From positions 1-25,727 of the IMG/VR virus record IMGVR_UViG_3300043466_001282: a stretch of 25,727 bases of DNA. The stretch is one strand, 5' to 3'. The position numbers and the translations under genes were made by a program. Below the pieces are notes generated by a model. It was not told where the DNA came from, ran no database searches, and saw only the letters and a list, made by a program, of their open reading frames with translations. The first letter of the stretch is position 1. Every line of letters starts with the position of its first letter. Below are positions 9,558 through 25,399 of this stretch, piece after piece. Origin of the DNA: a virus.

Positions 9558-9752
9558 ATGAAGGAAAATAAAATATTTTTAGTAAGAGATAAATACTCAA
9601 AAGCGATATTAAATACTAATGCTGATGAAGTAAAAGAGTACAACAACAAAAAACAAAAAGATAATAAAATAATAAAATTAGAATGTGAAATAAACAGCAT
9701 TAAAAAGCAACTAGAAGAAATTAAAAACTTATTAATTGAGAAAAATAAATGA
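9558..9752 (+). CDS. Small coiled-coil protein
   Basis: This is a 64-residue, highly charged (Lys/Glu/Asn) protein. The first 25 residues ('FLVRDKYSKAILNTNADEVK') resemble short phage proteins that start with an 'RD..skAilNtd..e...y' pattern. From residue 30 to the end a heptad-like spacing of Ile/Leu (IIKLECEINSIKKQLEEIKN) predicts a coiled coil. It has no membrane segment. The start lies 4 bases after the DUF4815-type stop and has no evident ribosome binding site, so it may rely on translational coupling. Its TGA stop overlaps the next ATG as ATGA. Small proteins of this kind sit among structural genes in many T4-like phages. A scaffold, chaperone or minor virion role is possible, but the function is unknown. 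Confidence 0.65.
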   Translation: MKENKIFLVRDKYSKAILNTNADEVKEYNNKKQKDNKIIKLECEINSIKKQLEEIKNLLIEKNK

Positions 9753-12700
9753 GTACAAACGACGATCTAACACCAGATATTGCAAAATTGGAATTGGGTG
9801 ATACCTTTTATACTTGGTTCAATACTACCAATAAACTAATCGATTATGTAAATCCTATTCAAATTTATGATGTTTCTCTTGGCTATGGTTTAACAGAAAC
9901 TCGTTTAGCCGGAAATGTAACTATTGATTTGAATGTTGGAAAGGGTATTAGATTATTTCAAACAACCAATAATGGTGAGATAACAGTTGATATAGAAGGA
10001 GTGTATTCATCAGTTGCTGCTGTTCAAGATAATGATTATGTAATGTTCCAAAGACCAAATACAGACAATGAAAATTATTTATTTTCTGTTGTTGCATCTG
10101 ATATTTTACCACCAACAATAAACGATAATCATGAATTTTTGGGTGAAATAACGGTATACGCTTTTAATTGTAGAACACCTTACATTTATGCTGGTTACAA
10201 TGATTCTGGAACTACAGAATCTGGTTTTGTTCTATTCCCAACAGAAACATATGAACAAAGTTTATTATTTAATACAAATTATGATTCATGGATTCTTAGT
10301 TCAAATTTATTATTAAAATCCAACAAATCATTCTTATCAAACAGTACCAGTAAAGATTCTATTTTTAGATTTTCTACAAATGGTTCACAATATGATGTTG
10401 TTTTAGAATTTGCTATGGGAATGGACTCCACAACTTCAGATGATCATTCTTGGAAAATTGAGGCAAGGCATTATTTTAATACATTAGAATTTAATTATGT
10501 AGATACTGCAACAACAGAAGTCGATCATGTTATTTTTTCTGCAAGAGTAGATGATGTAACTACAGACAGTAGCACATTTATAATAGCAGATAAGATTGAA
10601 ATTGGAAATGTTGGTGATTCTACAACTAATTTTAAACAAATAACAGATTATACCGAAAACATAATACCTATAAGCAATTCTTATGGTGTATTGGATAATA
10701 AATGGACAAACAGATATGTCACGGAAGATTATGTCGGTATTTCTGTTGGTAATTTAGTAAAAATATATGATGACACAAATAATACAACTACAATAACTCG
10801 ATGTGATTTGTCCTCTTCATCTTCAAATGAATCTGATACATTCACTTTTGGTATAGTTGAAAGAATTTCTGGTGGAAAAGCATATATTGTAATGCTTGGT
10901 GAGTTTAATTTAGAAACAACTCCAAGTCCTGTTTTTGTGCCTGGAACTGTTTATTATCTAACTACAGGATCCACAAACTATACAGAAACAAAACCAGCAA
11001 CAGGTTTAATAAAACCAGTATTTATAGCAACTGGTGAGTCTAGTGGTGTAATATTCCCCATGGCATCAAATGCATTATCTTTTGGTAATGTATCTGTAAG
11101 TGCAGTTGGTGGAGCAGAAACTGGTTACATAGTTGGAGCAGGATCAACTGTTTATTCAAGTGCATCAAATGGTAATGTTGAACTTGTTGCTGGCAACGGC
11201 ATTTCTTTAGAAACAAACAACACAACAAAGAAAGTTACTATTAGAGCGGTAACACAAGGAAATGAACCTGCATGGAGTCAAATTTATGCAGACTCTGGTA
11301 ATCCATATGTACAAGCTTTAACTCCATATGATACATTAATACTTACTGGTGGTGGAGGTGGTATAGAAGTTATTGCAGATGATAATACTGATAGTGATAT
11401 CTTGACCTTCCAAGGAAGTTATTTTAGAAGTATAACAATACAAGGTGATGAAACCGATGCAATAGATGCTACCATCACTGCAGGAGTTGATGCAGAATTA
11501 ACATTATACGGAGGTGTTGGTATTCGTTTAACTAACCCTGTTGCAAATATGATTCGTATAGAAGCAACTGGTGATCTTGCAGCAACTATTGAAAATTATA
11601 GTTTAACATTAACACAAATACAAAAACAACCAAAAAATTCTGTTCTTTATACACTTGGTGCAACTGGTGCTTTATCAGATGTATCAACTCTACAGGCAAC
11701 ACAAAGGTCGTTGTTACTATACACAGGAAGCAGTATGACTTGGGCAACTCCAATCTCATTCTTCTCCACAAGTGTAACAGAAAACACTTCTGGTACAATA
11801 GTACCAAGTGCTACAAGATTTTTAGGAATTTCAGCGCATGTTGCTGGTAGTACATCACCTATAGGTGGCACTAATGGCACTGCATCATTTATGTTTGATA
11901 GTAGCGTTAAACCAAATAGTATAGACAATGTTAGAATGGCATTAATACAAGGTTCTGGAATAACATTAGAAGTTGTAAATAGCACTGCAAGCGGTGATTG
12001 GGTAGGAGTTCCTGGTATTAAAATAAGTAATAGTGATTCGACTACAAAATTTAGAAAGGTTTATGTTTCAAATACAGGTGAAACAATTGAAGCGAATGCA
12101 TCTGGTATATTAACATTTACATCACCAGTGGGTTCACCAATAGCACTTGATAGTGATACAAATTCAGATGTAGTATATTTTAACATATATGCAAACTCAA
12201 TAAGAAATGAACATTTAGATGAAATGCCAGATAATACAGTTAAGGTTGGTATAGGAGACACCGATAATACACCGTCTGATTTGTTCATAGCTCAAAATAG
12301 TATACTTGGTCGTTTGAGTGGTGATTTACAATCACTTGATGGTGATGATATTAGAAGCATTTTAAGTCTTTCTGGTTCTTATTATTATAACGAAGTAGGT
12401 ACAGATAGTGGTTCCGTTCAAGCATCTTCTGGAAATGAAACTTTAACAATAGTCGGCGGAGCTGGCATATCAGTTCAAGTAAATACCAATCAAGAAATTG
12501 AAATTATTAATACATTACCAGATGGTGCTGGAGAAGATTTGGGTATCAGTGTTCTTGGTACTAGATCCTTACCAACAACTGGTGGTGCATTTACGAATAA
12601 CGATGTTGCTGCTGGCATAAACAAAATGTATTTTGCAGTTGGTGATTTGGGATATACCGTAGAAAAATTGTCTACTCTAACTGCATCAGTAAAACCATTC

Positions 12701-13906
12701 ATCTCTTGGACAACAATTGGCAAATCTGATAGTTCTATTACAAATGATTCAACACAAGGTTCTGGTTTATTATATGGTAAGTCATCCGGCAGTGAATTTT
12801 CTTCACAATTTTCACAAATAGGAAATGGCGTAAGTGGATGGAGAATACCATATATAGATCCTTCAGATTCAACACTTAGGTATTTTGCTAAAACTAGTGG
12901 GAATATTACATTAAATGTCGCAAATAATGGTCAATTCTTGGTATTTGCAGATGATGGTTCATTAACTGTTAGCAATTCTTATGTTAAAGAAATATCAGAA
13001 ACCATATCTGGTATTAAAATAACAACATTATCTACTACTCTTAGACGCATTGATGAAGATACAACAAGTCCATTAACATTTAATCAGTACAAATCGACTT
13101 TGGGAACATACTGGTTTGACAATAAAACTGCAATAGATTTAGATGGTGAGAATACATTTGTTTTTGCAACTGCAAATAATGTAACAAATTTTGCAAATAC
13201 GGTAGTACTAAAATTTGGAAATTCATTATCAATAACGGCAGCAACTCCACCATTGTCACAATATACAACTATATCCAACACAGATATAATAGTTAAACAA
13301 TTTTCAAGTTCTTGGTATAATTTGTCTAATCAAAAAATGTGTCTACCAACAGATATTTTTATTGGTGTTGGACCAACCACAGCAGATAATGCAGGATCTA
13401 CGGGTTATATAATTAAAAATGATAGTTCCACTGGTTCATTAGTTTTAACAAATTATAATTTGAATGTATATGGTTCCAGAGAAACACAAAAAGACAGAAG
13501 TTCAAAATTAAGTTTAGAGGTATTGAATGTTGACCCGGGTTCATCTTCAACTGCATATTCTGCAGCAAAAACAGTTGGTTCAATAATACACTGCTATCCC
13601 GATCCAACAACACTGAGTTCATCAGGAACACTAGATACATTTAGTGTTAGTGGTAGAAAATCTGTCAAATATTTAATTCAGGCTGTCAATAGCAGTGACA
13701 AAGCATTTACAACTGAATTTATAGTACAGAGTAATTCAACGGCAAATACATGTAATTATATCCAATATGCTTCGGTTGTTGAAACTGGAGGATTTACTCT
13801 AGATGTTAGTGCTACAATAAATACTGGTACAGTTACTGTAAGTTGTAATTCCGTCACTCAAGGAATAACCTTGTCATCTGTAAGGATAATGAAAATAGAG
13901 ATTTAA
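9749..13906 (+). CDS. Tail-fibre-like structural protein
   Basis: This 1385-residue protein is rich in Ser, Thr, Gly and Asn, with the beta-repeat character of marine myovirus tail fibres. The N-terminus (residues about 5-40: 'ELGDTFYTWFNTTNKLIDYV') resembles the conserved fibre head motif 'l...dTf..W...tN.iid.vN', probably the virion attachment end. A recurring unit of the form 'tdSG...a....dtLtivGGgGI.v......i.I' appears near residues 505-550 and 880-920. Shorter '(G)nGI' strands occur near 65, 480, 588 and 715. Around residues 825-875 the pattern 'LFIAQNSILGRLSGDLQSLD' is also fibre-like. The last 85 residues ('KYLIQAVNSSDKAFTTEFIV' onward) form a separate beta-rich end domain that may carry the tip or trimerisation function. 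It overlaps the preceding gene by ATGA and is followed one base later by the cysteine-rich protein gene. The fibre assignment rests on composition and repeats, not on a recognised T4 gene. Confidence 0.65.
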   Translation: MSTNDDLTPDIAKLELGDTFYTWFNTTNKLIDYVNPIQIYDVSLGYGLTETRLAGNVTIDLNVGKGIRLFQTTNNGEITVDIEGVYSSVAAVQDNDYVMFQRPNTDNENYLFSVVASDILPPTINDNHEFLGEITVYAFNCRTPYIYAGYNDSGTTESGFVLFPTETYEQSLLFNTNYDSWILSSNLLLKSNKSFLSNSTSKDSIFRFSTNGSQYDVVLEFAMGMDSTTSDDHSWKIEARHYFNTLEFNYVDTATTEVDHVIFSARVDDVTTDSSTFIIADKIEIGNVGDSTTNFKQITDYTENIIPISNSYGVLDNKWTNRYVTEDYVGISVGNLVKIYDDTNNTTTITRCDLSSSSSNESDTFTFGIVERISGGKAYIVMLGEFNLETTPSPVFVPGTVYYLTTGSTNYTETKPATGLIKPVFIATGESSGVIFPMASNALSFGNVSVSAVGGAETGYIVGAGSTVYSSASNGNVELVAGNGISLETNNTTKKVTIRAVTQGNEPAWSQIYADSGNPYVQALTPYDTLILTGGGGGIEVIADDNTDSDILTFQGSYFRSITIQGDETDAIDATITAGVDAELTLYGGVGIRLTNPVANMIRIEATGDLAATIENYSLTLTQIQKQPKNSVLYTLGATGALSDVSTLQATQRSLLLYTGSSMTWATPISFFSTSVTENTSGTIVPSATRFLGISAHVAGSTSPIGGTNGTASFMFDSSVKPNSIDNVRMALIQGSGITLEVVNSTASGDWVGVPGIKISNSDSTTKFRKVYVSNTGETIEANASGILTFTSPVGSPIALDSDTNSDVVYFNIYANSIRNEHLDEMPDNTVKVGIGDTDNTPSDLFIAQNSILGRLSGDLQSLDGDDIRSILSLSGSYYYNEVGTDSGSVQASSGNETLTIVGGAGISVQVNTNQEIEIINTLPDGAGEDLGISVLGTRSLPTTGGAFTNNDVAAGINKMYFAVGDLGYTVEKLSTLTASVKPFISWTTIGKSDSSITNDSTQGSGLLYGKSSGSEFSSQFSQIGNGVSGWRIPYIDPSDSTLRYFAKTSGNITLNVANNGQFLVFADDGSLTVSNSYVKEISETISGIKITTLSTTLRRIDEDTTSPLTFNQYKSTLGTYWFDNKTAIDLDGENTFVFATANNVTNFANTVVLKFGNSLSITAATPPLSQYTTISNTDIIVKQFSSSWYNLSNQKMCLPTDIFIGVGPTTADNAGSTGYIIKNDSSTGSLVLTNYNLNVYGSRETQKDRSSKLSLEVLNVDPGSSSTAYSAAKTVGSIIHCYPDPTTLSSSGTLDTFSVSGRKSVKYLIQAVNSSDKAFTTEFIVQSNSTANTCNYIQYASVVETGGFTLDVSATINTGTVTVSCNSVTQGITLSSVRIMKIEI

Positions 13907-13907
13907 T

Positions 13908-16694
13908 ATGGCAGATCCATTCAATAAGTTTAATTCGAAATCTGGTTTTGAATTAAACATTGACAACATTGTATCTAAAATAAGATTGGATTTTGACACA
14001 AATGTTTCAAATCCAGATAATTATATTTTAGGTGTAAATGCTGAACAGAATGAATTTGTTTTAATAGATCCATCAATAGTTAATAATACAAATCAAGTAG
14101 AAAATACATTTGATTTAGCAATATTAGGCAATAATATGTTAGGTCAAGTAAATCATTATGTTTTTGAAAAATTAGTAGATCCTTCTGTTGTTGGTTGTTC
14201 AAATTGTGATGCAACTACAGATATAAAACAATTAATAAGTTCTGGTTCATTGCCAATAGTCAATAAAGAAGTAATAGCAGAATTTGAAGTAAATCCTAAC
14301 GCAGTTCATGCGTTAGAGATTGAATTAGTTGGTCATAGAAAAATATGTGATGAAAATGGTAATTGTTTTGATGGGTGGTCTGATCAACAAAATTTGGTGA
14401 AAAAGACTTTAGTAACAAACACAAATGCATTATCTGATATGTTATCCACAAACAGAAATGCTCAATTTTCTTTTATAGATTATTCATGTTGTAAATGCTG
14501 TGATGCATATACATTATATCAAAATGGTGAAATAACTGAAAATCAAGCAAAAACAATTTGCACCAATACCAATGAGTTTATTAAAATAGATGGTTTTGTT
14601 GTTCCTGATTTTTATAGTTATTGTACAACACAAAATCAACCATATTTTGACGAATTCAGTACTACATTAGAAACAATTTCTATGTGTCGTTTGATAGAAA
14701 AAACTTCAGAAAATTATGGTGCTGGTATTAATAGTGATTTAAATTCATGTATTGATAGTTCATCTAAAATAGCCTTGAAATTTCCTAGTATACCAGTAGT
14801 AAAACTCACAGGTGGGGGATGTGGATGCGGCACTGGAAGTGATGGTAATTGTGCTTGCTGTGAAGGTGACAGAGGTTCTTCAAACTCACTTTGTTGTTGT
14901 TTGGAAAGAACAGGTGGAGATATTGATGCGTGTTGCAAAATACAAGGAAGTCTATGTCCTGTATGTAAATTCTCCATACCTGATTGTTCTGGTTGTGAAG
15001 GTGGTAGGTGTTGTACTGTAGATGGTGAACCAACACCAGCACCAACAACGGCTGAGCCAACAACTCCAGCGCCACCACCAGCAACTACCACCACTACAAC
15101 TACATTACCACCATCAGCAACTACCACCACTACAACTACATTACCACCATCAGCAACTACATCACCACCAACAACACTACCACCAACACCAGGTTGGACA
15201 TGTTTAGGTCCTGATGATTGTGTGCAAGATGATACTTCAACTTGTTTTAATCAAACTGAATGCTGTTCTGAATGTGATACTAAGTGGGTATGTGATCCAA
15301 TGTTCCTTCCAATACCCCCCGCTACTCATGGATGTATGCAAAGACCTTCTAGTGATACATGTGATAGACCTGAATACGACACATTGCAAGATTGTTTAGA
15401 CGATTCTAATGCGTGTGGAAATTCTTGGAGATGTTCTATTAATGGTGTTTGTGAAGAAGTAGATGGGTGTGTTGGTAATTTTAGAACAAGAGAAGAATGT
15501 CAGGCATCCGGAACATGTGGTAGATATATTTGTAGAAGTTCTCAAAGAACTTGTGAACAATGTGAGTTTGTTCCTGATACTTCAGTTGGTTATGCCACAC
15601 TAGAATTATGCAATTCTCAAAGTCAGTGCAATAAACAGTCTTATAGTTGTAATAACAGTATAGTTTGTCCTGATGGTAGAGAAATAGAAGGTATTTGTGA
15701 ACAAGTTTGCACTGGTGGTGAATTTACATCTCTAACAGAATGTGTAAATTCTGGTTGTGAAACAACTGATTTTGGACCAAGATGGAGATGTAACAATAAG
15801 TTTTGTGAGTTCGTTTCTCCTTGTGATGATACAAGTCCTCAACAGTTCTGGACTAGAGCAGAATGCCAAGAATCTTGTGGTGATTTTAATTGCAGAACTA
15901 ATGTCTGCACTAGGGAAGAAGGCTCTGGTCAATATCCATCTCTTGAAAATTGTGTAAATGATTGTGAATGTGTTGTATATTTAAATTTGCAAAGTTCAAC
16001 AACTGGTTGTTCAGAATGTCAAATAAGATGTGGTACAACAAAGAAAATAGAAAATGGCGGATCATGTATTGGTTGTGATTCTTTGGGTAGAAATTGTCTC
16101 AGATGCACAAATATATTCAATAACATGTTAGATTGTGAAATTTTTAGACAAAACAATAATTTAATACCACATACTTGTTCCGGTTCTCGTTGCGTACCAA
16201 CATCAAACTCAGAACCACAATTTGAAAATTGCGGTAATTATTGTTCAAAAACACAATGTGAAGAAATTTGTTCAGTACCAAGTGGTTATAATTGTGTAAA
16301 CAACAAGTGTCAACCTGATTATTGCGGAAGAGGACAATATAGAACCTATGATGAGTGTAAAGAATCATGTTCCGTTCCACTATCATGTGGTTATAACTGT
16401 GTTCCAAATATATTAAATCCGAGAATAAACGAATGCAAACCTGCATGTGGAGCTCAAACAGATGAAGGTAATGTATCTGGTGGTTCTAGTGTTCCTGGTG
16501 AATTCCAATCATTATCAATGTGTAAACAATTATGTTTATCAGATTTGGGTTGGACATGCAAAGGAAACAATTGTGTAAGAGCAACTATCGAAGATGGACC
16601 GGGACAATATGAAACATACAAAGAGTGTGTTGAGAGATGTATTATACCTAATCAAGCCCCATGTGGTGTTGCACCAAGAATATTGAGGACTTAA
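13908..16694 (+). CDS. Cysteine-rich repeat surface protein with Pro/Thr linker
   Basis: This 928-residue protein has about 95 cysteines by hand count. The order is as follows. Residues 1-60 form an N-terminal module ('FNKFNSKSGFELN') shared with the proteins at 18878 and 19606. A beta-rich region to about 300 includes a CCKCC cluster near residue 194. A very Cys/Gly-rich segment spans about 303-371. A Pro/Thr/Ala linker spans about 375-429. An array of about ten degenerate units then runs to the C-terminus, with pattern [WY]xCxxxxC...G.[YF].[ST]..[EN]C...C, each about 30-65 residues. There is no signal peptide or membrane segment. The units look like small disulfide- or metal-stabilised knots; I cannot match them to a named family. 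The shared N-terminus and location between fibre-like genes suggest a virion-borne adhesin or decoration protein (inference). The start one base after the upstream stop has only a weak GAGA ribosome binding site. Confidence 0.6.
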   Translation: MADPFNKFNSKSGFELNIDNIVSKIRLDFDTNVSNPDNYILGVNAEQNEFVLIDPSIVNNTNQVENTFDLAILGNNMLGQVNHYVFEKLVDPSVVGCSNCDATTDIKQLISSGSLPIVNKEVIAEFEVNPNAVHALEIELVGHRKICDENGNCFDGWSDQQNLVKKTLVTNTNALSDMLSTNRNAQFSFIDYSCCKCCDAYTLYQNGEITENQAKTICTNTNEFIKIDGFVVPDFYSYCTTQNQPYFDEFSTTLETISMCRLIEKTSENYGAGINSDLNSCIDSSSKIALKFPSIPVVKLTGGGCGCGTGSDGNCACCEGDRGSSNSLCCCLERTGGDIDACCKIQGSLCPVCKFSIPDCSGCEGGRCCTVDGEPTPAPTTAEPTTPAPPPATTTTTTTLPPSATTTTTTTLPPSATTSPPTTLPPTPGWTCLGPDDCVQDDTSTCFNQTECCSECDTKWVCDPMFLPIPPATHGCMQRPSSDTCDRPEYDTLQDCLDDSNACGNSWRCSINGVCEEVDGCVGNFRTREECQASGTCGRYICRSSQRTCEQCEFVPDTSVGYATLELCNSQSQCNKQSYSCNNSIVCPDGREIEGICEQVCTGGEFTSLTECVNSGCETTDFGPRWRCNNKFCEFVSPCDDTSPQQFWTRAECQESCGDFNCRTNVCTREEGSGQYPSLENCVNDCECVVYLNLQSSTTGCSECQIRCGTTKKIENGGSCIGCDSLGRNCLRCTNIFNNMLDCEIFRQNNNLIPHTCSGSRCVPTSNSEPQFENCGNYCSKTQCEEICSVPSGYNCVNNKCQPDYCGRGQYRTYDECKESCSVPLSCGYNCVPNILNPRINECKPACGAQTDEGNVSGGSSVPGEFQSLSMCKQLCLSDLGWTCKGNNCVRATIEDGPGQYETYKECVERCIIPNQAPCGVAPRILRT
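15081..15188 (+). repeat. 36-bp tandem repeat, three copies (third degenerate)
   Basis: Bases 15081-15116 and 15117-15152 are identical 36-mers encoding a 12-residue unit, ATTTTTTTLPPS. Bases 15153-15188 are a diverged third copy (ATTSPPTTLPPT). They make up most of the Pro/Thr linker of the cysteine-rich protein. Because the unit is a multiple of three, gain or loss of a copy keeps the frame and only changes linker length. Confidence 0.9.
16685..16689 (+). promoter_or_regulatory. Ribosome binding site
   Basis: GAGGA lies 6 bases before the ATG at 16696, inside the last codons of the cysteine-rich protein gene. It supports the start of the 726-residue protein. Confidence 0.55.
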
Positions 16695-16695
16695 A

Positions 16696-18876
16696 ATGTC
16701 AGAAAAATATACAATATTAAGTGAGCAAGCAATAGAAATACAAGAACTTTCTGTAACACAGTCTTCAGAAAATATTTTACACAAAAATGGATTACAAAAT
16801 AATTCATATACACCTGGTAGTTGTGCAAATGATGGTAATAATATAACCAGTGATTATATGAAATATTCTTCATCTGGAAATTGTAGTGATTATGAATCTA
16901 AAACATTAAACAGTCACGATTCTACTTGTTCTGATTATTGGCTAAAAGAAATACAAACAAATGATGAAACAGCAAACAATAGACAATTACATTGGTTAAA
17001 TGGTGGTTATTTTTATGGTATGTCAGAATATAGAAAATATATTGAAGATGAATTAGGAACAATTCATTTTAGTAATACTATAAAATATGATAATGTTTAT
17101 AGAGATGTAAATAATAATATTGAAATTGAAACATCGAATATTCCTCAATTTTATTTAAATACAAAAAGAGAATTTAAGATTCTTTCGGATGAAACATATC
17201 TTGGTTCAATTCCATATATGTTTAATATTAAACAATCATTTCTTTCAATTAATAATTGGTATGATTTACCTCAAAAAAATATAAACTCTTTAGTACCATC
17301 TTCATTATATAATGAAGCAACTAATAAATTTCAATCAATATTTAAAGAAACTCCAGAGGCTATCAATAATTGTGGTTATACTATATGTCCAGTTGTTGCA
17401 AAACCAAGCAATATAATTGAAATGGATGATGTTTTTGTCATGTTAAGTAATGGCAACATAACTTATTTTCCATTGACAAATGAAAATATATTCAGAACAT
17501 TTTATCATAGAATAGATTTTACTTTATCTACATTGGTTCAAACACCGGGTTCAACTTATAATATTGATATTATAACGCCATCATTTTCTGTGTATGACAT
17601 CTTAAATAATTATATTGGTTCAGTACAAAATACAAGTTTTAACTCTTATTTTGTAAGCAATGCACCCAAAACTTTATATGGTTTAACTACAACAAATGTA
17701 AGTTTAGCAAAGTCATCAACAGAATTTTATAATAATCATAAATTTATAGTATATTTAACCAAAGATCCAGATGATTCAACTAAAACTATTTTGTGGGTTG
17801 ATAGGTCTTTACCAACTGTGGTAAATGAATTTAATGAAATAGAAGATAGTATAAATGGAAAATTACTGTTAAAAGATATTGTCAGTTATATGAAAACTCA
17901 ATATAGTAATATTCCACTCACAGTTACTTTATATAAATTTACTACTACTGATATATCTACTATAAATTTAAATAAAATAGACAATTTACTTGGTTCTGGT
18001 GCATTTTTACAATCTGCTGAAAATCCAACTGGTCAATTCGACTCTGATCCAAACTTAGTAATAAAATTAAATGATGAAAAAAATGATATTTTGGATAATT
18101 TATATTCTGAATATGGCGATTTTGCTGAATTTGTTATAATGATTAAAGCAACAACATATTTAACTGGATTCACAAACAACACAAAAAATTTAACACAATC
18201 ATTATCCGTTGATCTGGTAAATAATAAACAACTTTTTGGTGTTTTAGAATCAGCAGATATTCAATTAAATCATTCTTTATTCGATGAGTATTCGTCAAAA
18301 TTTTCAACACCAGATTATTCTGCAATTAAGAAATACGATGGTAATAGTGGCAAAAAAAATTCAATTCCTTTAAGAGGATCTGAATATGTTGAATCTGAAA
18401 ATTCAAATTATCCATCAATACGATACATCAGAAAACCAGATGGTAAATTTTATATACAAGTTTTAGCAGGTGCATTTCCATATTATCATTCCGTTGTTCA
18501 TTATCCAACCACTCGTTTATTAACACCAAGTGGTGTAGAAAATCCAGTAGAAAAAAGTTTGAAACAAGTGTGTTCAAAATCAAACGATTGGTACAATCAT
18601 GTTGCTACTACAAAATGGACATGTGTTATAAAACACACACAATTTGGTTCAGATTCTAGTGAATATATTAATACAGAAGCAGATAAGAGTAAAACAATTG
18701 CACCACAAAGCAGTATTGTTGGTTCTAACCCTCCAGGTAAAAAACCCTCAGTATACAATCCAGGTTCTATATATGAGGGTGGAGGTATTTCTGGTGGCTC
18801 TGGTGGAGGAATTAATAGACCCGGAGATGGAATATCAATAGAAGTAGAAACAGAAAATAATATAGGAATAGAATAA
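16696..18876 (+). CDS. Unrecognised 726-residue protein in adhesin block
   Basis: I do not recognise this protein. It is rich in Asn, Ser, Tyr and Thr and is predicted mostly beta and soluble, with no signal peptide or membrane segment. Residues about 38-82 hold three closely spaced cysteine motifs of the form [GS]-x-C followed by Asp/Tyr (SCANDG, NCSDY, TCSDYW). Another pair, CGYTIC, lies near residue 227. Near the C-terminus residues about 570-660 contain 'RYIRKPDGKFYIQVLAGAFP' and two tryptophan-cysteine stretches (KQVCSKSNDWYN, TKWTC). The last 60 residues are a Gly/Ser/Pro-rich tail (GGGISGGSGGG) ending in an acidic stretch, which could be a flexible or binding tail. It lacks the N-terminal module shared by its neighbours. 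It begins one base after the upstream stop and ends one base before the next ATG. Context suggests a virion surface or assembly protein (inference). Confidence 0.5.
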   Translation: MSEKYTILSEQAIEIQELSVTQSSENILHKNGLQNNSYTPGSCANDGNNITSDYMKYSSSGNCSDYESKTLNSHDSTCSDYWLKEIQTNDETANNRQLHWLNGGYFYGMSEYRKYIEDELGTIHFSNTIKYDNVYRDVNNNIEIETSNIPQFYLNTKREFKILSDETYLGSIPYMFNIKQSFLSINNWYDLPQKNINSLVPSSLYNEATNKFQSIFKETPEAINNCGYTICPVVAKPSNIIEMDDVFVMLSNGNITYFPLTNENIFRTFYHRIDFTLSTLVQTPGSTYNIDIITPSFSVYDILNNYIGSVQNTSFNSYFVSNAPKTLYGLTTTNVSLAKSSTEFYNNHKFIVYLTKDPDDSTKTILWVDRSLPTVVNEFNEIEDSINGKLLLKDIVSYMKTQYSNIPLTVTLYKFTTTDISTINLNKIDNLLGSGAFLQSAENPTGQFDSDPNLVIKLNDEKNDILDNLYSEYGDFAEFVIMIKATTYLTGFTNNTKNLTQSLSVDLVNNKQLFGVLESADIQLNHSLFDEYSSKFSTPDYSAIKKYDGNSGKKNSIPLRGSEYVESENSNYPSIRYIRKPDGKFYIQVLAGAFPYYHSVVHYPTTRLLTPSGVENPVEKSLKQVCSKSNDWYNHVATTKWTCVIKHTQFGSDSSEYINTEADKSKTIAPQSSIVGSNPPGKKPSVYNPGSIYEGGGISGGSGGGINRPGDGISIEVETENNIGIE

Positions 18877-18877
18877 A

Positions 18878-19609
18878 ATGCCAGATAATGTGAATAAATT
18901 TAATTCTAAATATGGATTTGATTTAAATCAAGTTCAAAGTATATCTATTTCTGGTAGTAGAACTCTTATAGATAAAGTTTTAATTGTAAGACAAGATCCA
19001 ATAACTCTAAAATACTATTTAGAACCACAAGATATTGGAATACAACATGGAATAAACGATACAACATTGACATTAAAAGATGATACTTATCATTATGTAA
19101 AATCATTTGTATTTTTAAATAATTCACAATTACAAAATAAATTATTATTTTCTATAGATGTAGATTTTGACAATAAAACCCAGGGAATACTTTCTATTCA
19201 AGGTAAACTTATGGCAAAAGAAACATTAGTCGATAATACTTTCCATAATTATATTTTTGAAATAGGCAATCAATTACCATATGATCATGTAACTGGTATA
19301 AGTTATATAAGACCAATGCAGAATAAATCATTATTTTTATATAATAATGGTGAAATAAAACAAATAGATGATGAATTATATACAGAATACAAGTTAACAA
19401 ATAATGTAACAAAAAAACATATTAATCCAATTTTTTCTACAATAGCAATAGATGGTTTTGATTTTGATTTATCAAAATCACCGTATATTGAAATACAAGA
19501 AAATACAGATAATCTTTACGAGATAAATATATTCTGTAATCCTTTTAGTGTTAATACACAAAAAATAGAATGGTTTGGAAATATTGAAATAACGGTAGCA
19601 GCAACATGA
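18878..19609 (+). CDS. Small structural protein, paralogous scaffold of the next gene
   Basis: This 243-residue protein has no cysteine-rich module and no linker. Residues 5-50 ('VNKFNSKYGFDLN', then 'TLIDKVLIVR' and 'YYLEPQDI') match the N-terminal module of the proteins at 13908 and especially 19606. Its last 35 residues ('QKIEWFGNIEITVAAT') match the end of the 1054-residue protein ('ETINWFGKADLFVSIT'). The middle also lines up loosely: 'VKSFVF' with 'IKSFIVPF', and 'SIDVDFDNKTQGILSIQGKL' with a 'VDMNVDL...IRTIEIKHKL' stretch. It therefore looks like the bare beta-sandwich scaffold of its larger neighbour, from a tandem duplication. The gene has an AGGA ribosome binding site at 18864-18867, and its stop overlaps the next ATG as ATGA. 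A role as virion decoration or adhesin base is inferred. Confidence 0.6.
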   Translation: MPDNVNKFNSKYGFDLNQVQSISISGSRTLIDKVLIVRQDPITLKYYLEPQDIGIQHGINDTTLTLKDDTYHYVKSFVFLNNSQLQNKLLFSIDVDFDNKTQGILSIQGKLMAKETLVDNTFHNYIFEIGNQLPYDHVTGISYIRPMQNKSLFLYNNGEIKQIDDELYTEYKLTNNVTKKHINPIFSTIAIDGFDFDLSKSPYIEIQENTDNLYEINIFCNPFSVNTQKIEWFGNIEITVAAT

Positions 19610-22600
19610 CTTCAAAAAGTTTTAATTCAACATCTAATTTTAATTTAGGTAATCTACCATCAGTTTCTATAGTTGGACCAACATCTGATATAGACAAAGT
19701 ATTAGTTTTAAAATACGACGAAACTGGTAAATATAGATTAGAAACGCAACAAGTTCCAACCATAACATCTCCAATTCAACGAGATTTAGTCATAGGTTCT
19801 GGTAAAACATTTTTTCATAGATCTATTTTTTCTGGATCAACATCAACAGATACATTTGAAGAAATTAAAAGTTTTATAGTACCATTTAGTGGTAATAACT
19901 CTACAGATCAAGATTTTGATGGATTTAAGAAGATGTATGTGGACATGAATGTTGATTTGTATGGTCATTCAAATGTAGTAGATGAGTCAACAGATAAAAC
20001 AGAAAATATAAGAACTATAGAAATAAAACATAAACTAACTAAAACTAATAATACAACTTGGAATTCTTTATTTCCTGAACTTAGCACTCTATTTGATAAT
20101 AATAGTTTATCGCTTATTTCTTATTTTAAAATAGATACAGACTCTAATTTTTCAGCCAATACTGGCAGAAACGGTGTTGGGTTTACCGATGGTCAATCAG
20201 TAGTTAAAAGTGGTAGAGTATTAATTGTAAATTCTGTAACTGGTTTTGTTTATAAAGAATTTTTATTGAGACAAGCCAATAATAGTGTTTCACTTGGAAA
20301 CTCTTTCAGTGATGGATTTCGAGAGAGAGCTCTTGTTTTTCAATTAAGTAATATAGAAGAGAGTTCTTGGTTTGGTATTTCTACTGGTCCAAGATTACAA
20401 CAAATACAATTTAGATGGGTGGCAAAATTAACTGCCGGAGTATATAACAGCTTTTACGAAGCGTTGACTGCTGATTATAACAATAGTTCTCCAACAAATA
20501 ATTCAGGAGTTGAAATAATTTTTAATTCCACATCTCCACCAGAGCCATTTACTTTCGTTCAAAAAGGAACTACTTCAAAAAGGGAATTTAAAACTTTTGA
20601 TTTTCCATCAACTCAAAACTATTATAACTTTACCACTGGTTACAATTTAGTTAGTAGAAAAGATAATAACAAGAGTTTAGAAAAAATATTATTTGGTCCG
20701 GGGCAACAAACAACTCTTGAGACATGTGGACCAGGTGACAGTCCTTGGACTGTAGATCCAAATACTGGAGTTTGGACTAGAAATTGTTGTGCTCCATTAG
20801 TTGGTTCATATAGTAGTTTAGACGCTTCTGTTGGTACTGATTGGTATTGCGGAGGAGATACAGTTACTCCAGACGGACGAACATTTTTTGATAATTGTCA
20901 GTGTAAAGATTGTAGCGGACCATGTAGTGGTGCATCTACAACAACCGCTGCTCCAACCACAACTACTTCTACAACAACCACAACTACCTCTACAACAACT
21001 ACAACAACTGCTCCTCCATTCCCATGTCCATCTAATCTTCAGGCAACAGATAGTACTTCAACTAGTGGTATAACAATAACATGGACAAGAATACCAAGTT
21101 GGCAAGTGCCTTCTGGTTATACATGGGATCATGATAAACTTTTTAAAAATGGTGTTCAATTTGGAGCTAATATAAAAGGAAATCCAAATATTGTAGATAA
21201 TACTGTACCTCCATGTACAGAAGTTAGCTATGTTGCAAAAAGTTATTATGTAAAAACTGGAACTACAAATTTAATAGAATGTTCTCCTTGTGTATCATGT
21301 ACTGATAATGGCTCTAAAAGATTAGTAACACCAAATGCTCCATCAGTAACTGTAATTGGTTCTAATTTAGATGTTAATTGGAATGATATTAGTTCTGCAA
21401 CTGGTTATGAATTAATTAGAGCAGAAGATTCTGGATTCACAGTCAATTCTATAACTGTAACAGGATTAACAGTATCATTTTATTCAGACACATCTGTAGT
21501 TGCTGGTAAACAATATTTTTATAAAGTTAGAGCAGTTTGTGGGTTAGGAGTTTCTGCAAGTTTATTTTCTAATACTTCATCCAACACAGTACCAACAACC
21601 ACCACTACAACAACCGCTGCTCCAACCACAACTACCACTACAACAACTACAACTACAACTACAACAACTACTAGTACTACAACCACTACCACTACCACCC
21701 CACCACCAGCGCCAAGCGCACCAACAGGTGTTAATGCTTCTGATAATCAATTTACGACTGGAATTCAAATAACATGGAATTCTGTTGCGCTGGCAACTGA
21801 ATATAGAATCTATAGAAATTCTACACAAATAGCAACTGTAGTTGGTACAACTAATACTACTTATCTTGATACCGATTCTTCTTTGAATACATGCACCGAA
21901 TATTCTTATACAGTAAGATCTTATTATTCTGCTGGTGGTGAAAGTACAGATTCAGTTGCAGATCTTGGTTCAAAGAAAATGAGAAAACCAATTAATGTCA
22001 CCACTGTATATAATTCAGTTGATAATAACATTGAAGTTTCTTGGGACATTGTTGATTTAAATGCAACAAGATATTACATCTATAGATCTGAAAACGGTGG
22101 TGCTTATACACAAATAGATGATACAGAAGATGCATTTTATGTAGATACAAATACTGATTTGACTTATGGGACAAATTATCAATATTTTATTAGACCATTT
22201 TGTTCTGCGGTAGGTTTTGGTGAAGCATCTGATACTTCTTCTCCAGTGTTATATCCAACAACCACAACCACAACCACTACTACTACCACAACTACAACTA
22301 CTACCACGACACCAGCACCAAAATTTTCAAATGAAATAGGTGATGATGGTGCGAATCCACCTTGGGCAAATCCTTGGAACATAGATTCTGGTAATTATTC
22401 TTACAATTATACACATATACCTGGTTCTTTTTCACTAATTTATACAAATAATAGTGGTAAACCAACTTTAGCACTATTTGGTTCTGAAAATAAAAATGAA
22501 TATAAAGACGATATAATTTCTTATAAAGAATTAAGGGTTGAAAAAAATAATGAGTATGCAAATAATGTAATTGTATTACAACCTAATTTTTCTACTAGTA

Positions 22601-22770
22601 AAAACCCATTAAATGATAATTTTAAAAATACAAAGAATTATCCTCTAATAGTTGCCTCTATAAATACAAATGGAGATTTGATCTTGACATTGATGGCAAG
22701 ATCTGTAAAATCTCAAAACGAAACAATTAATTGGTTCGGTAAAGCTGATTTGTTTGTATCCATAACATAA
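19606..22770 (+). CDS. Modular adhesin-like protein with fibronectin-III-like domains and Thr-rich linkers
   Basis: This 1054-residue protein has clear modules. Residues 1-55 are the N-terminal module shared with two upstream proteins. Residues 55-365 are beta-rich. Residues about 370-440 are a cysteine module with about ten Cys (ETCGPG, RNCCAP, WYCGGD, NCQCKDCSGPC). Thr linkers lie at about 442-472, 663-705 and 884-905. Four fibronectin-III-like domains lie at about 475-575, 576-660, 706-793 and 794-885; the third shows the pattern best ('PTGVNASDNQFTTGIQITW', 'ATEYRIYRN', 'CTEYSYTVRSYY'). Domains 1-2 and 3-4 form two similar pairs. Residues 906-1054 end in the 'WFGKADLFVSIT' motif shared with the 243-residue protein. 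Fibronectin-III domains in phage virion proteins are often thought to bind surface glycans, and the Thr linkers act as spacers. A virion-displayed binding protein is the best inference. It overlaps the upstream gene by ATGA. Confidence 0.65.
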   Translation: MTSKSFNSTSNFNLGNLPSVSIVGPTSDIDKVLVLKYDETGKYRLETQQVPTITSPIQRDLVIGSGKTFFHRSIFSGSTSTDTFEEIKSFIVPFSGNNSTDQDFDGFKKMYVDMNVDLYGHSNVVDESTDKTENIRTIEIKHKLTKTNNTTWNSLFPELSTLFDNNSLSLISYFKIDTDSNFSANTGRNGVGFTDGQSVVKSGRVLIVNSVTGFVYKEFLLRQANNSVSLGNSFSDGFRERALVFQLSNIEESSWFGISTGPRLQQIQFRWVAKLTAGVYNSFYEALTADYNNSSPTNNSGVEIIFNSTSPPEPFTFVQKGTTSKREFKTFDFPSTQNYYNFTTGYNLVSRKDNNKSLEKILFGPGQQTTLETCGPGDSPWTVDPNTGVWTRNCCAPLVGSYSSLDASVGTDWYCGGDTVTPDGRTFFDNCQCKDCSGPCSGASTTTAAPTTTTSTTTTTTSTTTTTTAPPFPCPSNLQATDSTSTSGITITWTRIPSWQVPSGYTWDHDKLFKNGVQFGANIKGNPNIVDNTVPPCTEVSYVAKSYYVKTGTTNLIECSPCVSCTDNGSKRLVTPNAPSVTVIGSNLDVNWNDISSATGYELIRAEDSGFTVNSITVTGLTVSFYSDTSVVAGKQYFYKVRAVCGLGVSASLFSNTSSNTVPTTTTTTTAAPTTTTTTTTTTTTTTTTSTTTTTTTTPPPAPSAPTGVNASDNQFTTGIQITWNSVALATEYRIYRNSTQIATVVGTTNTTYLDTDSSLNTCTEYSYTVRSYYSAGGESTDSVADLGSKKMRKPINVTTVYNSVDNNIEVSWDIVDLNATRYYIYRSENGGAYTQIDDTEDAFYVDTNTDLTYGTNYQYFIRPFCSAVGFGEASDTSSPVLYPTTTTTTTTTTTTTTTTTTPAPKFSNEIGDDGANPPWANPWNIDSGNYSYNYTHIPGSFSLIYTNNSGKPTLALFGSENKNEYKDDIISYKELRVEKNNEYANNVIVLQPNFSTSKNPLNDNFKNTKNYPLIVASINTNGDLILTLMARSVKSQNETINWFGKADLFVSIT
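20932..21020 (+). repeat. ACN-rich simple repeat, Thr linker 1
   Basis: A run of imperfect ACN triplets encodes a linker of Thr with a few Ser, Ala and Pro, between the cysteine module and the first fibronectin-III-like domain of the 1054-residue protein. Bases 20936-20966 are repeated exactly in linker 2. Confidence 0.85.
21591..21720 (+). repeat. ACN-rich simple repeat, Thr linker 2
   Basis: This is the longest of the three Thr-coding triplet runs (about 43 codons). It separates the two fibronectin-III-like pairs and ends in a Pro/Ala stretch. Bases 21605-21635 repeat 20936-20966 exactly (31 nt). Confidence 0.85.
22255..22320 (+). repeat. ACN-rich simple repeat, Thr linker 3
   Basis: This run codes for an almost pure Thr tract of about 18 residues followed by Pro-Ala-Pro. 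It joins the fourth fibronectin-III-like domain to the C-terminal domain. Confidence 0.85.
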
Positions 22771-23206: not shown

Positions 23207-24031
23207 ATGGCAAAACCAGCCAGTAGAGAAGCGTTAAAAGATTACTGTTTAAGGAAATTGGGATATCCAGTAATTCAAATAAATGTAGACGATGCTCAAA
23301 TTGAGGATCGTCTAGACGATGCTTTGCAGTTTTTTGCTGAATATCATTTTGACGGTGTTGAGAAAGTCTATATGCGTAAGCAAATAACTCAAACCGATAT
23401 GGATAGAGGTTATATCGATTTAACAGAACCAACCATAGCAAACGATTCGACCAACCCCCCTACTTTAGCAGCTCCCGCACTTGATCCAGATGGACAAAGT
23501 GTAATTTCTGTTGTTAAAGTTTTTCAATTATATGATACTTTGGGTGGAACTGGTATGTTTGACGCAAGATATCAAATTGCTTTAAACGATTTGTATGGTT
23601 TGAGAACAAACACATACAGTCAATCAATGATTACATATTCTATAACAAGAAGCCATATGCAGATGTTACAAGATCTTCTTACTCCTGAGAAAACATTAGA
23701 ATACAGCAGAGTCACAAATAGAATATATGTTAATATGGATTGGACACAACAAGCATATCTTGGTCAATATATTATGTTTGAAGCATATAAGATTTTAAAC
23801 CCAGAAGTATATACAGACATTTATAATGATAGAGTATTGAAAAAATATTGCACTGCTCTAATAAAACAACAATGGGGTAGTAATATGATGAAATTTGGAG
23901 GAGTGGAACTTCCCGGTGGTATAACACTAAATGGTCAAGAAATTTTTAATGAAGCAACATCAGAAGTTGAAAAGATAGAAAACGATATTCAAAGCAAATA
24001 CGAACTACCTCCACAATTTTTTGTAGGATAA
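23207..24031 (+). CDS. 13: Neck protein, T4 gp13-like
   Basis: This 274-residue protein opens with 'REALKDYCLRKLGYPVIQIN' and then 'DAQIEDRLDDALQFFAEYHF' (residues 7-49). I recognise this as the N-terminus of gp13 of marine T4-like phages. In T4, gp13 and gp14 form the neck that closes the DNA-filled head and lets the tail join. Later helical segments include 'RSHMQMLQDLLTPEKTLEYS' and 'QAYLGQYIMFEAYKILNPEV' (about 147-205). There is no signal peptide or membrane segment. The start is set by GGGGAG 8 bases upstream. It is followed after one base by the gp14-like gene, then gp15, the T4 order. It is probably expressed late from the promoter motif at 23176. Confidence 0.8.
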   Translation: MAKPASREALKDYCLRKLGYPVIQINVDDAQIEDRLDDALQFFAEYHFDGVEKVYMRKQITQTDMDRGYIDLTEPTIANDSTNPPTLAAPALDPDGQSVISVVKVFQLYDTLGGTGMFDARYQIALNDLYGLRTNTYSQSMITYSITRSHMQMLQDLLTPEKTLEYSRVTNRIYVNMDWTQQAYLGQYIMFEAYKILNPEVYTDIYNDRVLKKYCTALIKQQWGSNMMKFGGVELPGGITLNGQEIFNEATSEVEKIENDIQSKYELPPQFFVG

Positions 24032-24032
24032 A

Positions 24033-24734
24033 ATGGCAACAAATCCATATTTTAAAAATCAAGGTTATAAACCAACACAAAATCTCTTTGAAGATTTATC
24101 CGAAGAGTCCATTAAAATAAATGGAATAGATGTTGTTTACATAGTAAAAACAACAGATAAGGTAGATCAATTGTTTGGTGACAATCAACATGGAAAATTA
24201 AAAAATTCATTCTCAATAGAAATGTATTTAAAAAATGCTAGAGCATTTGAGGGTGAAAGAGATATAGTAAATAAATTTGGTATGGAAATTAAAGATAATG
24301 TTTCTTTAGTTGTGTCAAAGAAAAGATTTCGTGAGGAATCTTTTAAATTGCCAGAAATAGGTGGAAGAATATATCCTATGAATAGACCAATTGAAGGAGA
24401 TTTAATATATCTTCCATTATCACCAACCTCTGATAATTTATATGAAATCAAGTTCGTTGAAAATGAAGATGAAATGTATCGTCAAGGTGATTACTATACT
24501 TTTAGAATAGATTGTGAACTGTACAAATATTCTATGGAAGATATTACTACAGGATTTAGTAAGATTGATGATATCAAGTCAGAACTAGTACAAGAAGTAG
24601 ATGAAGACGGAGATGGTATAACTGATTACATAGTCGATAAAAAGAAAATCAATGATAATACCCAAATACAAACAGAAGGCGACGATATCATTGACTTTAC
24701 AGAGAAAGATCCATTCTCAGAAGGTAATTATTAA
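24033..24734 (+). CDS. 14: Neck protein, T4 gp14-like
   Basis: This 233-residue protein begins 'NPYFKNQGYKPTQNLFEDLS' and continues with 'EESIKINGIDVVYIVK'. This is the usual opening of gp14 in marine T4-like phages ('NpFf...QnL..dL..E.ikiyG.dv.Yi.r'). The middle has 'FGMEIKDNVSLVVSKKRF' (about 86-104), 'GDLIYLPLS' and 'LYEIKFVENEDEMYRQGDYY' (about 136-155), also typical. The last 45 residues are acidic and contain a calcium-loop-like DEDGDGITD at 190-198. In T4, gp14 joins gp13 at the portal vertex after packaging. The gene follows gp13 by one base (AGGA ribosome binding site in the gp13 end), and its TAA shares one base with the gp15 ATG. Confidence 0.8.
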   Translation: MATNPYFKNQGYKPTQNLFEDLSEESIKINGIDVVYIVKTTDKVDQLFGDNQHGKLKNSFSIEMYLKNARAFEGERDIVNKFGMEIKDNVSLVVSKKRFREESFKLPEIGGRIYPMNRPIEGDLIYLPLSPTSDNLYEIKFVENEDEMYRQGDYYTFRIDCELYKYSMEDITTGFSKIDDIKSELVQEVDEDGDGITDYIVDKKKINDNTQIQTEGDDIIDFTEKDPFSEGNY

Positions 24735-25399
24735 TGTTTACTCATTTTTATCATAGTTCAGTAAGAAAATTAGTAACTGCATTTGGTACATTATTTAATA
24801 ACATATATGTAACAAGAACAGATAATGGTGTGACTAAAAAAATAAAAGTACCTTTGATATATTCACCAAAAGAAAAGTTTGTGCATCGTCTTAATTTAGA
24901 TGTCGATAAAACTATGGTGCAGACAATTTTACCAAGAATGGGATTTAGTATCACAAGCATGTCTTATGACTCTGAAAGAAAGAAAAACTCTATAAACAAG
25001 AGATGGAAACAAGAAATAGAAACAAATGACAATGTTATTTTTCAATACCGGTATGAGGATGTGCCATATAATATAGATTTTGAATTATACATTTATACTA
25101 GAAATATGGATGACGGTTTACAAATAATAGAACAAATATTACCATTTTTCACTCCAGAGTTTACTATGACAATTAAACCGAAAATATTAAATACTGATAA
25201 TGAAAAAGTAGATATTCCTATTATTTTAAATCAAGTAACACCAAATGAGATTTATGATAATAAGTTTTCAGAAGATACAAGAGTATTGACTTGGGATTTG
25301 CAATTTACTGCAAAAACATTTTTGTATGGACCTGTCAAGGGTAATTCATCTATCATTAAAGATGTTAACATAAATATCTTTGATATAAATGAAATTTAA
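24734..25399 (+). CDS. 15: Tail sheath stabiliser/completion protein, T4 gp15-like
   Basis: This 221-residue protein has the same pattern as T4 gp15 as I remember it. It opens with 'FYHSSVRKLVTAFGTLFNNI' where T4 has 'FYNSSFRR...MGDLFSNI'. Then 'VPLIYSPKEKFVHRLNLD', 'TILPRMGFSITSMSYDS', 'IDFELYIYTRNMDDGLQIIE' and 'QILPFFTPEFTMTI' follow in the same order. Near the end 'DTRVLTWDLQFTAKTFLYGP' matches the T4 'RRIEWSLTFEVNGWMYPPV' region. Its length is close to that of T4 gp15 (about 270 residues), a little shorter. gp15 forms a hexameric ring on the tail tube end that holds the sheath and contacts the neck. The AGAAGG near 24719 is a suitable ribosome binding site, and the ATG overlaps the gp14 stop by one base. 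Confidence 0.85.
   Translation: MFTHFYHSSVRKLVTAFGTLFNNIYVTRTDNGVTKKIKVPLIYSPKEKFVHRLNLDVDKTMVQTILPRMGFSITSMSYDSERKKNSINKRWKQEIETNDNVIFQYRYEDVPYNIDFELYIYTRNMDDGLQIIEQILPFFTPEFTMTIKPKILNTDNEKVDIPIILNQVTPNEIYDNKFSEDTRVLTWDLQFTAKTFLYGPVKGNSSIIKDVNINIFDINEI

Follow-up and report, generated by a model that had tools for sequence, protein, structure and literature searches.

We find that a 928-residue protein encoded in a fragment of viral DNA carries a long array of small cysteine-rich domains, and that these belong to a family that is unnamed and whose identity is well supported. With modest confidence we read the array as a series of two-disulfide mini-domains within a modular tail-region protein of a T4-like myovirus from a water environment, where it would act in adhesion or as a stiff spacer. 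The DNA analysed, here called the window, comprises 25,727 nucleotides (25.7 kb, GC 31%) of virus record IMGVR_UViG_3300043466_001282, and its features are collected in Table 1.

A preliminary description, made from the sequence, had reported about 67 cysteines in 500 residues, beginning at position 15193. The count is exact for residues 429-928. The start, on the other hand, lies one base off frame, in a frame that contains stops; the correct frame runs from 15192 within the open reading frame 13908-16694. Overlooked at the time were the cysteine-containing N-terminal domain of 371 residues, the Pro/Thr linker ahead of the array, and the correspondence of the next gene, 16696-18876, to the C-terminal half of what is one protein in related phages. 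The N-terminal domain opens with the motif FNSxxGFxL and holds 12 cysteines that are invariant across six relatives, CxxC and CCxCC among them; this set might form a separate metal or disulfide site. The AlphaFold2 model of the domain (pLDDT 39) is too low for use. Tandem repeats at the DNA level are confined to the Pro/Thr linker, and the array is therefore an old, diverged repeat.

Table 1. Features of the window, with positions, strand and basis or remarks.
Feature	Position	Strand	Basis or remarks
DUF4815 / VrlC-like tail or baseplate protein, 2542 aa	1925..9553	+	family match
Probable tail fibre, 1385 aa, directly 5' of Cys protein	9749..13906	+	no family match; named from gene position and sequence character
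Cys protein ORF, 928 aa, 95 Cys: N-domain, Pro/Thr linker, cysteine-unit array	13908..16694	+	
N-terminal domain, residues 1-371	13908..15020	+	common to L005, L008, L010, L081, L084
Pro/Thr-rich linker, residues 372-428	15021..15191	+	36-bp tandem repeat, 3.2 copies
Cysteine-rich array, residues 429-928, 67 Cys	15192..16691	+	
Unit 1, residues 430-458	15195..15281	+	degenerate, 6 Cys
Unit 2, residues 459-504	15282..15419	+	5 Cys
Unit 3, residues 505-537	15420..15518	+	5 Cys
Unit 4, residues 538-576	15519..15635	+	5 Cys
Unit 5, residues 577-618	15636..15761	+	6 Cys
Unit 6, residues 619-657	15762..15878	+	5 Cys; hairpin plus helix in model
Unit 7, residues 658-687	15879..15968	+	canonical 4 Cys; hairpin plus helix in model
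Non-conforming Cys-rich insert, residues 688-752	15969..16163	+	9 Cys; kept in L081
Unit 9, residues 753-790	16164..16277	+	6 Cys
Unit 10, residues 791-822	16278..16373	+	5 Cys
Unit 11, residues 823-878	16374..16541	+	6 Cys, long loops
Unit 12, residues 879-912	16542..16643	+	canonical 4 Cys; top match to outside profile (33.5 bits)
ORF, 726 aa, C-terminal half	16696..18876	+	fused counterparts in relatives
ORF, 243 aa, resembles part of ORF 19606	18878..19609	+	sequence similarity
ORF, 1054 aa, poly-Thr linkers and apparently repeated modules	19606..22770	+	N-terminus related to ORF 18878
Adaptor Ad2, head closure Hc2, gp15-like tail sheath stabilizer (three neck/tail genes)	23207..25399	+	family matches

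The surrounding genes define the setting. Genes resembling gp13 to gp15 and a baseplate or VrlC-like gene are present in order, and a gp8-like fragment is also found; the neck, sheath-stabilizer and VrlC-like genes thus place the window in the tail and neck part of a T4-like myovirus genome. Among annotated gp15 proteins the closest is that of Pelagibacter phage Mosig (44.6%). The order of fibre gene followed by Cys protein recurs in three related contigs (L005, L008 and L081), and gene position suggests that the 928-residue protein is carried on the virion. Three more ORFs of structural appearance lie between it and the neck genes. Of these, ORFs 18878-19609 and 19606-22770 are related to one another (29% over 188 aa), the first 17 residues of the former resemble the N-terminus of the 928-residue protein, and both share with that protein the FNSxxGFxL start, which might serve all three as an attachment end. 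The idea of a Bacteroidota host found no support: of 12 starts, 7 are preceded by Shine-Dalgarno-like motifs, where about 5% would be expected.

A first scan for relatives with the whole 928-residue protein gave none, and full-protein tblastn against 50,697 phage records likewise produced no match; the relatives were located through the neighbour gene at 23207 and by alignment. Given that the Cys protein is split from its C-terminal half here, unlike in L005, L008, L010 and L014, one could suspect an annotation artefact, either a chance open frame or a gene split by a misassembled frameshift. This suspicion, hardly credible also because a ribosome-binding-like GAGGA precedes the ATG at 16696, is refuted by an ortholog on an independent contig (L081:8001-10904; 968 aa, 89 Cys, 53% identity) that has the matching N-terminal domain, Thr/Pro linker and array, the same cysteine pattern and the identical split followed by the same gene. 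Between the two arrays all 66 aligned cysteines are identical, including those of the insert and the fifth and sixth cysteines of irregular units, whereas non-cysteine positions are identical at 43.7%; the 67th cysteine is lost to a one-column gap artefact. The array dN/dS is about 0.36, a rough value because synonymous sites are near saturation. Conservation in L081 therefore indicates that the 928-residue protein is translated and that its cysteines are under strong constraint.

The repeat itself stands well above chance. In 5000 composition-preserving shuffles the core motif of the helix side, [YFW]x[STN]xxxCx(2-5)C, found 9 times in the array, was expected 0.48 times and never reached 9, and the full unit pattern, found 7 times, was expected 0.02 times. 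The preliminary description had counted about ten degenerate units; the degeneracy and the repetition hold, and carving by hand yields twelve segments, of which eleven are unit-like (residues 430-687 and 753-912) and one is a non-conforming insert.

Neither the unit nor the array has a significant match in Pfam, NCBIfam, PHROGs or PDB sequences, which agrees with the initial failure to place it in a named family, and a literature search found no description of such a repeat; one lead, PMC12750041, proved irrelevant. The domain is new in the sense of being unnamed. It is at the same time widespread, with copies in several phage proteins that are unrelated and in proteins exported by Flavobacteriales MAGs. 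When viral and bacterial contigs were scanned with a degenerate DNA version of the unit, coding copies turned up both in phage proteins of unrelated kinds and in a small number of Flavobacteriales MAGs; most of the remaining bacterial matches were discarded as out-of-frame or antisense-looking chance matches. From the unrelated phage and bacterial units, leaving aside all sequences of the window, L081 and L014, a profile was built, and it retrieves the window array with a score of 42.2 bits (E 3.4e-10, Z=100000); in 1000 shuffles that left every cysteine in position the score was 4.2 bits at best. The shared core, C-x(4-n)-C...Gx[YF]x[ST]xx[E]C-x3-C, spans about 30 residues, its four cysteines are nearly invariant and its [ST] is present in 54 of 54 units.

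Phage proteins that bear the unit and are otherwise unrelated to the window protein are found on L093, L094, L096-L099, L103, L106 and L107. The L094 protein combines five tandem units with a FISUMP domain, and its five-unit array has no match among phages. FISUMP (Fib_succ_major) and the unit also occur together in a bacterial lipoprotein-like protein (L149:1333-2514, beside L094:3342-7340 in the phage), a combination that is a possible sign of module exchange. The largest case is a phage protein of 1790 aa and 158 Cys (L152:8190-13559), in which about nine copies of the unit alternate with a second cysteine module, GACCxDGVCTxNQTExxC...C..C, and whose upstream neighbour matches tail-spike and virion-structural PHROGs.

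In bacteria, four Flavobacteriales MAG proteins (L131, L143, L145 and L147) join Kelch repeats, units and a Por_Secre_tail, and two others (L144 and L146) carry units and a Por_Secre_tail; in all six this domain scores above its cut-off. By sequence, L126/L142 and L149 have lipoprotein-like starts. In bacteria the unit thus belongs to proteins that are exported. Within the order to which the L126 genome (titled Flavobacteriales) belongs, the unit is present at E <= 1e-5 in 44 of 196 genomes, and almost all of these measure 1-2 Mb; a Bacteroidota sample taken across the whole phylum gave 1 of 247, so that the distribution is patchy. None of 200 genomes of Pseudomonadota, the phylum of a Methylovirgula MAG, has it, and the matches in 4 of 146 genomes of the cyanobacterial phylum lie in short frames and are probably spurious.

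What fold does the unit adopt? AlphaFold2 prediction for the adjacent units 6 and 7, from a 19-row alignment, gave a mean pLDDT of 80 and a pTM of 0.53, with strand, strand and helix in each (E4-8, E11-15, H29-36; E38-42, E45-49, H58-65), so that the predicted fold is consistent between the two units. In the model C1 and C2 lie on the hairpin, and C3 and C4 are one helical turn apart on the helix. The term cysteine-knot-like, applied earlier, does not fit, because a cystine knot needs at least six cysteines and the invariant core has two too few. Foldseek against the PDB and a BFVD fold search returned nothing at E <= 0.001. A second look with VIA listed 13 entries with Z >= 2, all of them Kunitz domains at low Z (2.0-3.3), and weak sequence matches lean the same way. 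This recurrent resemblance in sequence and structure could mean that degenerate Kunitz-type protease inhibitors are strung together in the array and shield the particle from host or environmental proteases. We hold this to be very improbable. The VIA alignments mostly cover 35-39 residues, about Kunitz positions 17-57; starting at residue 17 or so, they leave out the reactive-site loop, which is missing before the hairpin and for which there is no space between units. It is only the core that aligns, and the first two Kunitz cysteines and the reactive-site residue are absent. Each unit has four conserved cysteines, not the six cysteines and three disulfides of a Kunitz domain, and PF00014 has no match at E <= 10 to the array or to 38 single units. 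The data suggest instead a stripped-down Kunitz-like core, and it is possible that the likeness of the capped CxxxC helix is convergent.

A second question concerns the chemistry of the cysteines. They probably form disulfides rather than bind metal: the bacterial relatives are exported, no cysteine-to-histidine exchange occurs in 54 distinct full-length units (a biased count, since the profile selects for cysteine), and the unit resembles a disulfide fold. The opposing reading, in which the units are zinc-binding mini-domains with four cysteine ligands that fold in the cytoplasm as a hairpin plus helix, draws on the predicted order of these elements and the C-x4-C...C-x3-C spacing, both reminiscent of classical zinc fingers, on the reducing cytoplasm in which phage proteins assemble, and on the CxxC and CCxCC of the N-terminal domain. 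We judge it unlikely, as relatives reside in T9SS-secreted and lipoprotein-like proteins, the extra cysteines do not come in sets of four, and the fold matches, which do not exclude a zinc finger by omitting it, comprise 13 VIA rows of disulfide-rich Kunitz domains. As the total of 95 is odd and several units hold five cysteines, some cysteines must pair between units or chains or stay free.

The related loci point to a modular protein. Phage adhesin loci typically have conserved ends and an exchanged middle. In L005, L008 and L010 a single protein joins the N-terminal domain (38-41% identity to the window), a short and different cysteine-rich middle, and a C-terminal part related to ORF 16696-18876; in L014 Thr linkers and two units precede the C-terminal part, to which they are fused, while in the window and L081 that half is a separate gene. 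Across these loci, then, the N- and C-terminal parts are constant and the cysteine-rich middle is exchanged. The C-terminal half includes an RCC1-like beta-propeller sequence in L005:3710-8779, L008:3676-8781 and L014:3-4469 (the Pfam match was run on L005), which is absent from the window and L010. At the syntenic place of the window protein, flanked by a fibre-like gene and the genes on the gp13 side, two other contigs encode an unrelated unnamed family of 420-446 aa with 47-49 Cys (L022:6840-8099 and L049:8246-9583); L048:1-1077 is a partial copy, and cysteine makes up 11-12% of this family.

The variation in array length, from some 500 aa in both the window and L081 to two units in L014 and a short cysteine-rich stretch in L005, L008 and L010, together with the conserved C-domain core around GAFPYYH, would also fit an array that works chiefly as a mechanical or protective spacer, the details of its surface being unimportant, with receptor binding left to the product of 16696-18876. 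This is less probable, though less remote than zinc binding, given that every array cysteine and even the odd insert are kept between the window and L081 at the dN/dS stated above, saturation permitting, and that the C-terminal half is a separate gene in the window.

Our preferred reading, an array of two-disulfide mini-domains in a modular tail-region protein, may be outlined as follows. The 928-residue protein would be a modular structural protein that probably belongs to a tail-associated adhesin or fibre; the position of its gene and the exchange of modules point to such an adhesin or spacer role on the virion. Its N-terminal domain would attach it to the particle, and the Pro/Thr linker would join this domain to some eleven tandem mini-domains, each predicted to start with a beta-hairpin ([YW]xC-x4-C) and to continue into a helix that opens on a capping box ([ST]xxE) and contains CxxxC. 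Two disulfides per unit would link hairpin to helix, likely C1-C4 and C2-C3 by analogy with the Kunitz core, and may form once the phage is released into oxidising water, or else within an oxidising compartment. The result would be a stiff string that resists proteases and presents small surfaces with variable loops; it could bind the host or a particle surface or serve as a spacer, and the locus would swap such modules between related phages. Three points weigh against this reading: two disulfides per unit leave some cysteines of the five-cysteine units and of the odd total unaccounted for, T4-like virions assemble in a reducing cytoplasm, and the structural model comes from the 19-row alignment, with a pTM of 0.53 and weak Kunitz matches.

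Are such arrays of wider significance? In tailed-phage proteins, made as they are in a reducing cytoplasm, one would not expect large disulfide-rich arrays. Should such arrays sit on the particle, then either the phage proteins undergo chemical maturation following lysis or their fold withstands reduction. The unit may further mark an exchange of surface modules between phages and bacteria. It is conceivable, though doubtful, that the unit represents a disulfide mini-domain family, unnamed and probably amounting to a stripped-down Kunitz-like core, which has passed between surface proteins exported by aquatic Flavobacteriales and proteins of the tail region in several phage lineages. In these phages it would have expanded into arrays, with up to 158 Cys in one protein, that become mature only once they are released into oxidising water and act as exchangeable adhesive modules. 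As the unit recurs in Flavobacteriales and phages and yet has no Pfam, NCBIfam or PHROGs entry, naming it would annotate many hypothetical proteins.

Compared with known systems, the window resembles the T4-like, Kyanoviridae-related phage Mosig in its gp15-like sheath stabilizer, neck genes, VrlC-like protein and fibre genes, whereas other genes flank the neck genes of Mosig. With Kunitz/BPTI domains (PF00014) the unit may share the predicted hairpin and C-terminal helix; it has in common with them the [YF]x[ST]xx[ED]CxxxC signature and gives low-Z fold matches to them, and it differs in the loop, cysteine number and profile match discussed above. The classical zinc finger has the hairpin-helix order predicted for the unit and a similar ligand spacing, yet the unit is all-cysteine without histidine, has exported relatives and lists no such fold match. 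The unit proteins of other phages (L094, L152, L093, L096-L099 and L103) have the unit in common, often in tandem, and nothing else. By profile the Flavobacteriales unit WNC...C...GxYxT..EC...C is the same, with four cysteines, aromatic residue, glycine and [ST] cap, and is often tandem; there one to a few regular four-cysteine units stand beside a T9SS tail or lipobox, whereas the window array is longer and more degenerate, has extra cysteines and lies in a phage tail-gene region. Finally, the locus is akin to modular phage adhesins, those with Ig-like domains or exchanged tail-fibre modules, in having constant ends and a swapped middle of small repeat domains, but here the swapped modules are cysteine mini-domains.
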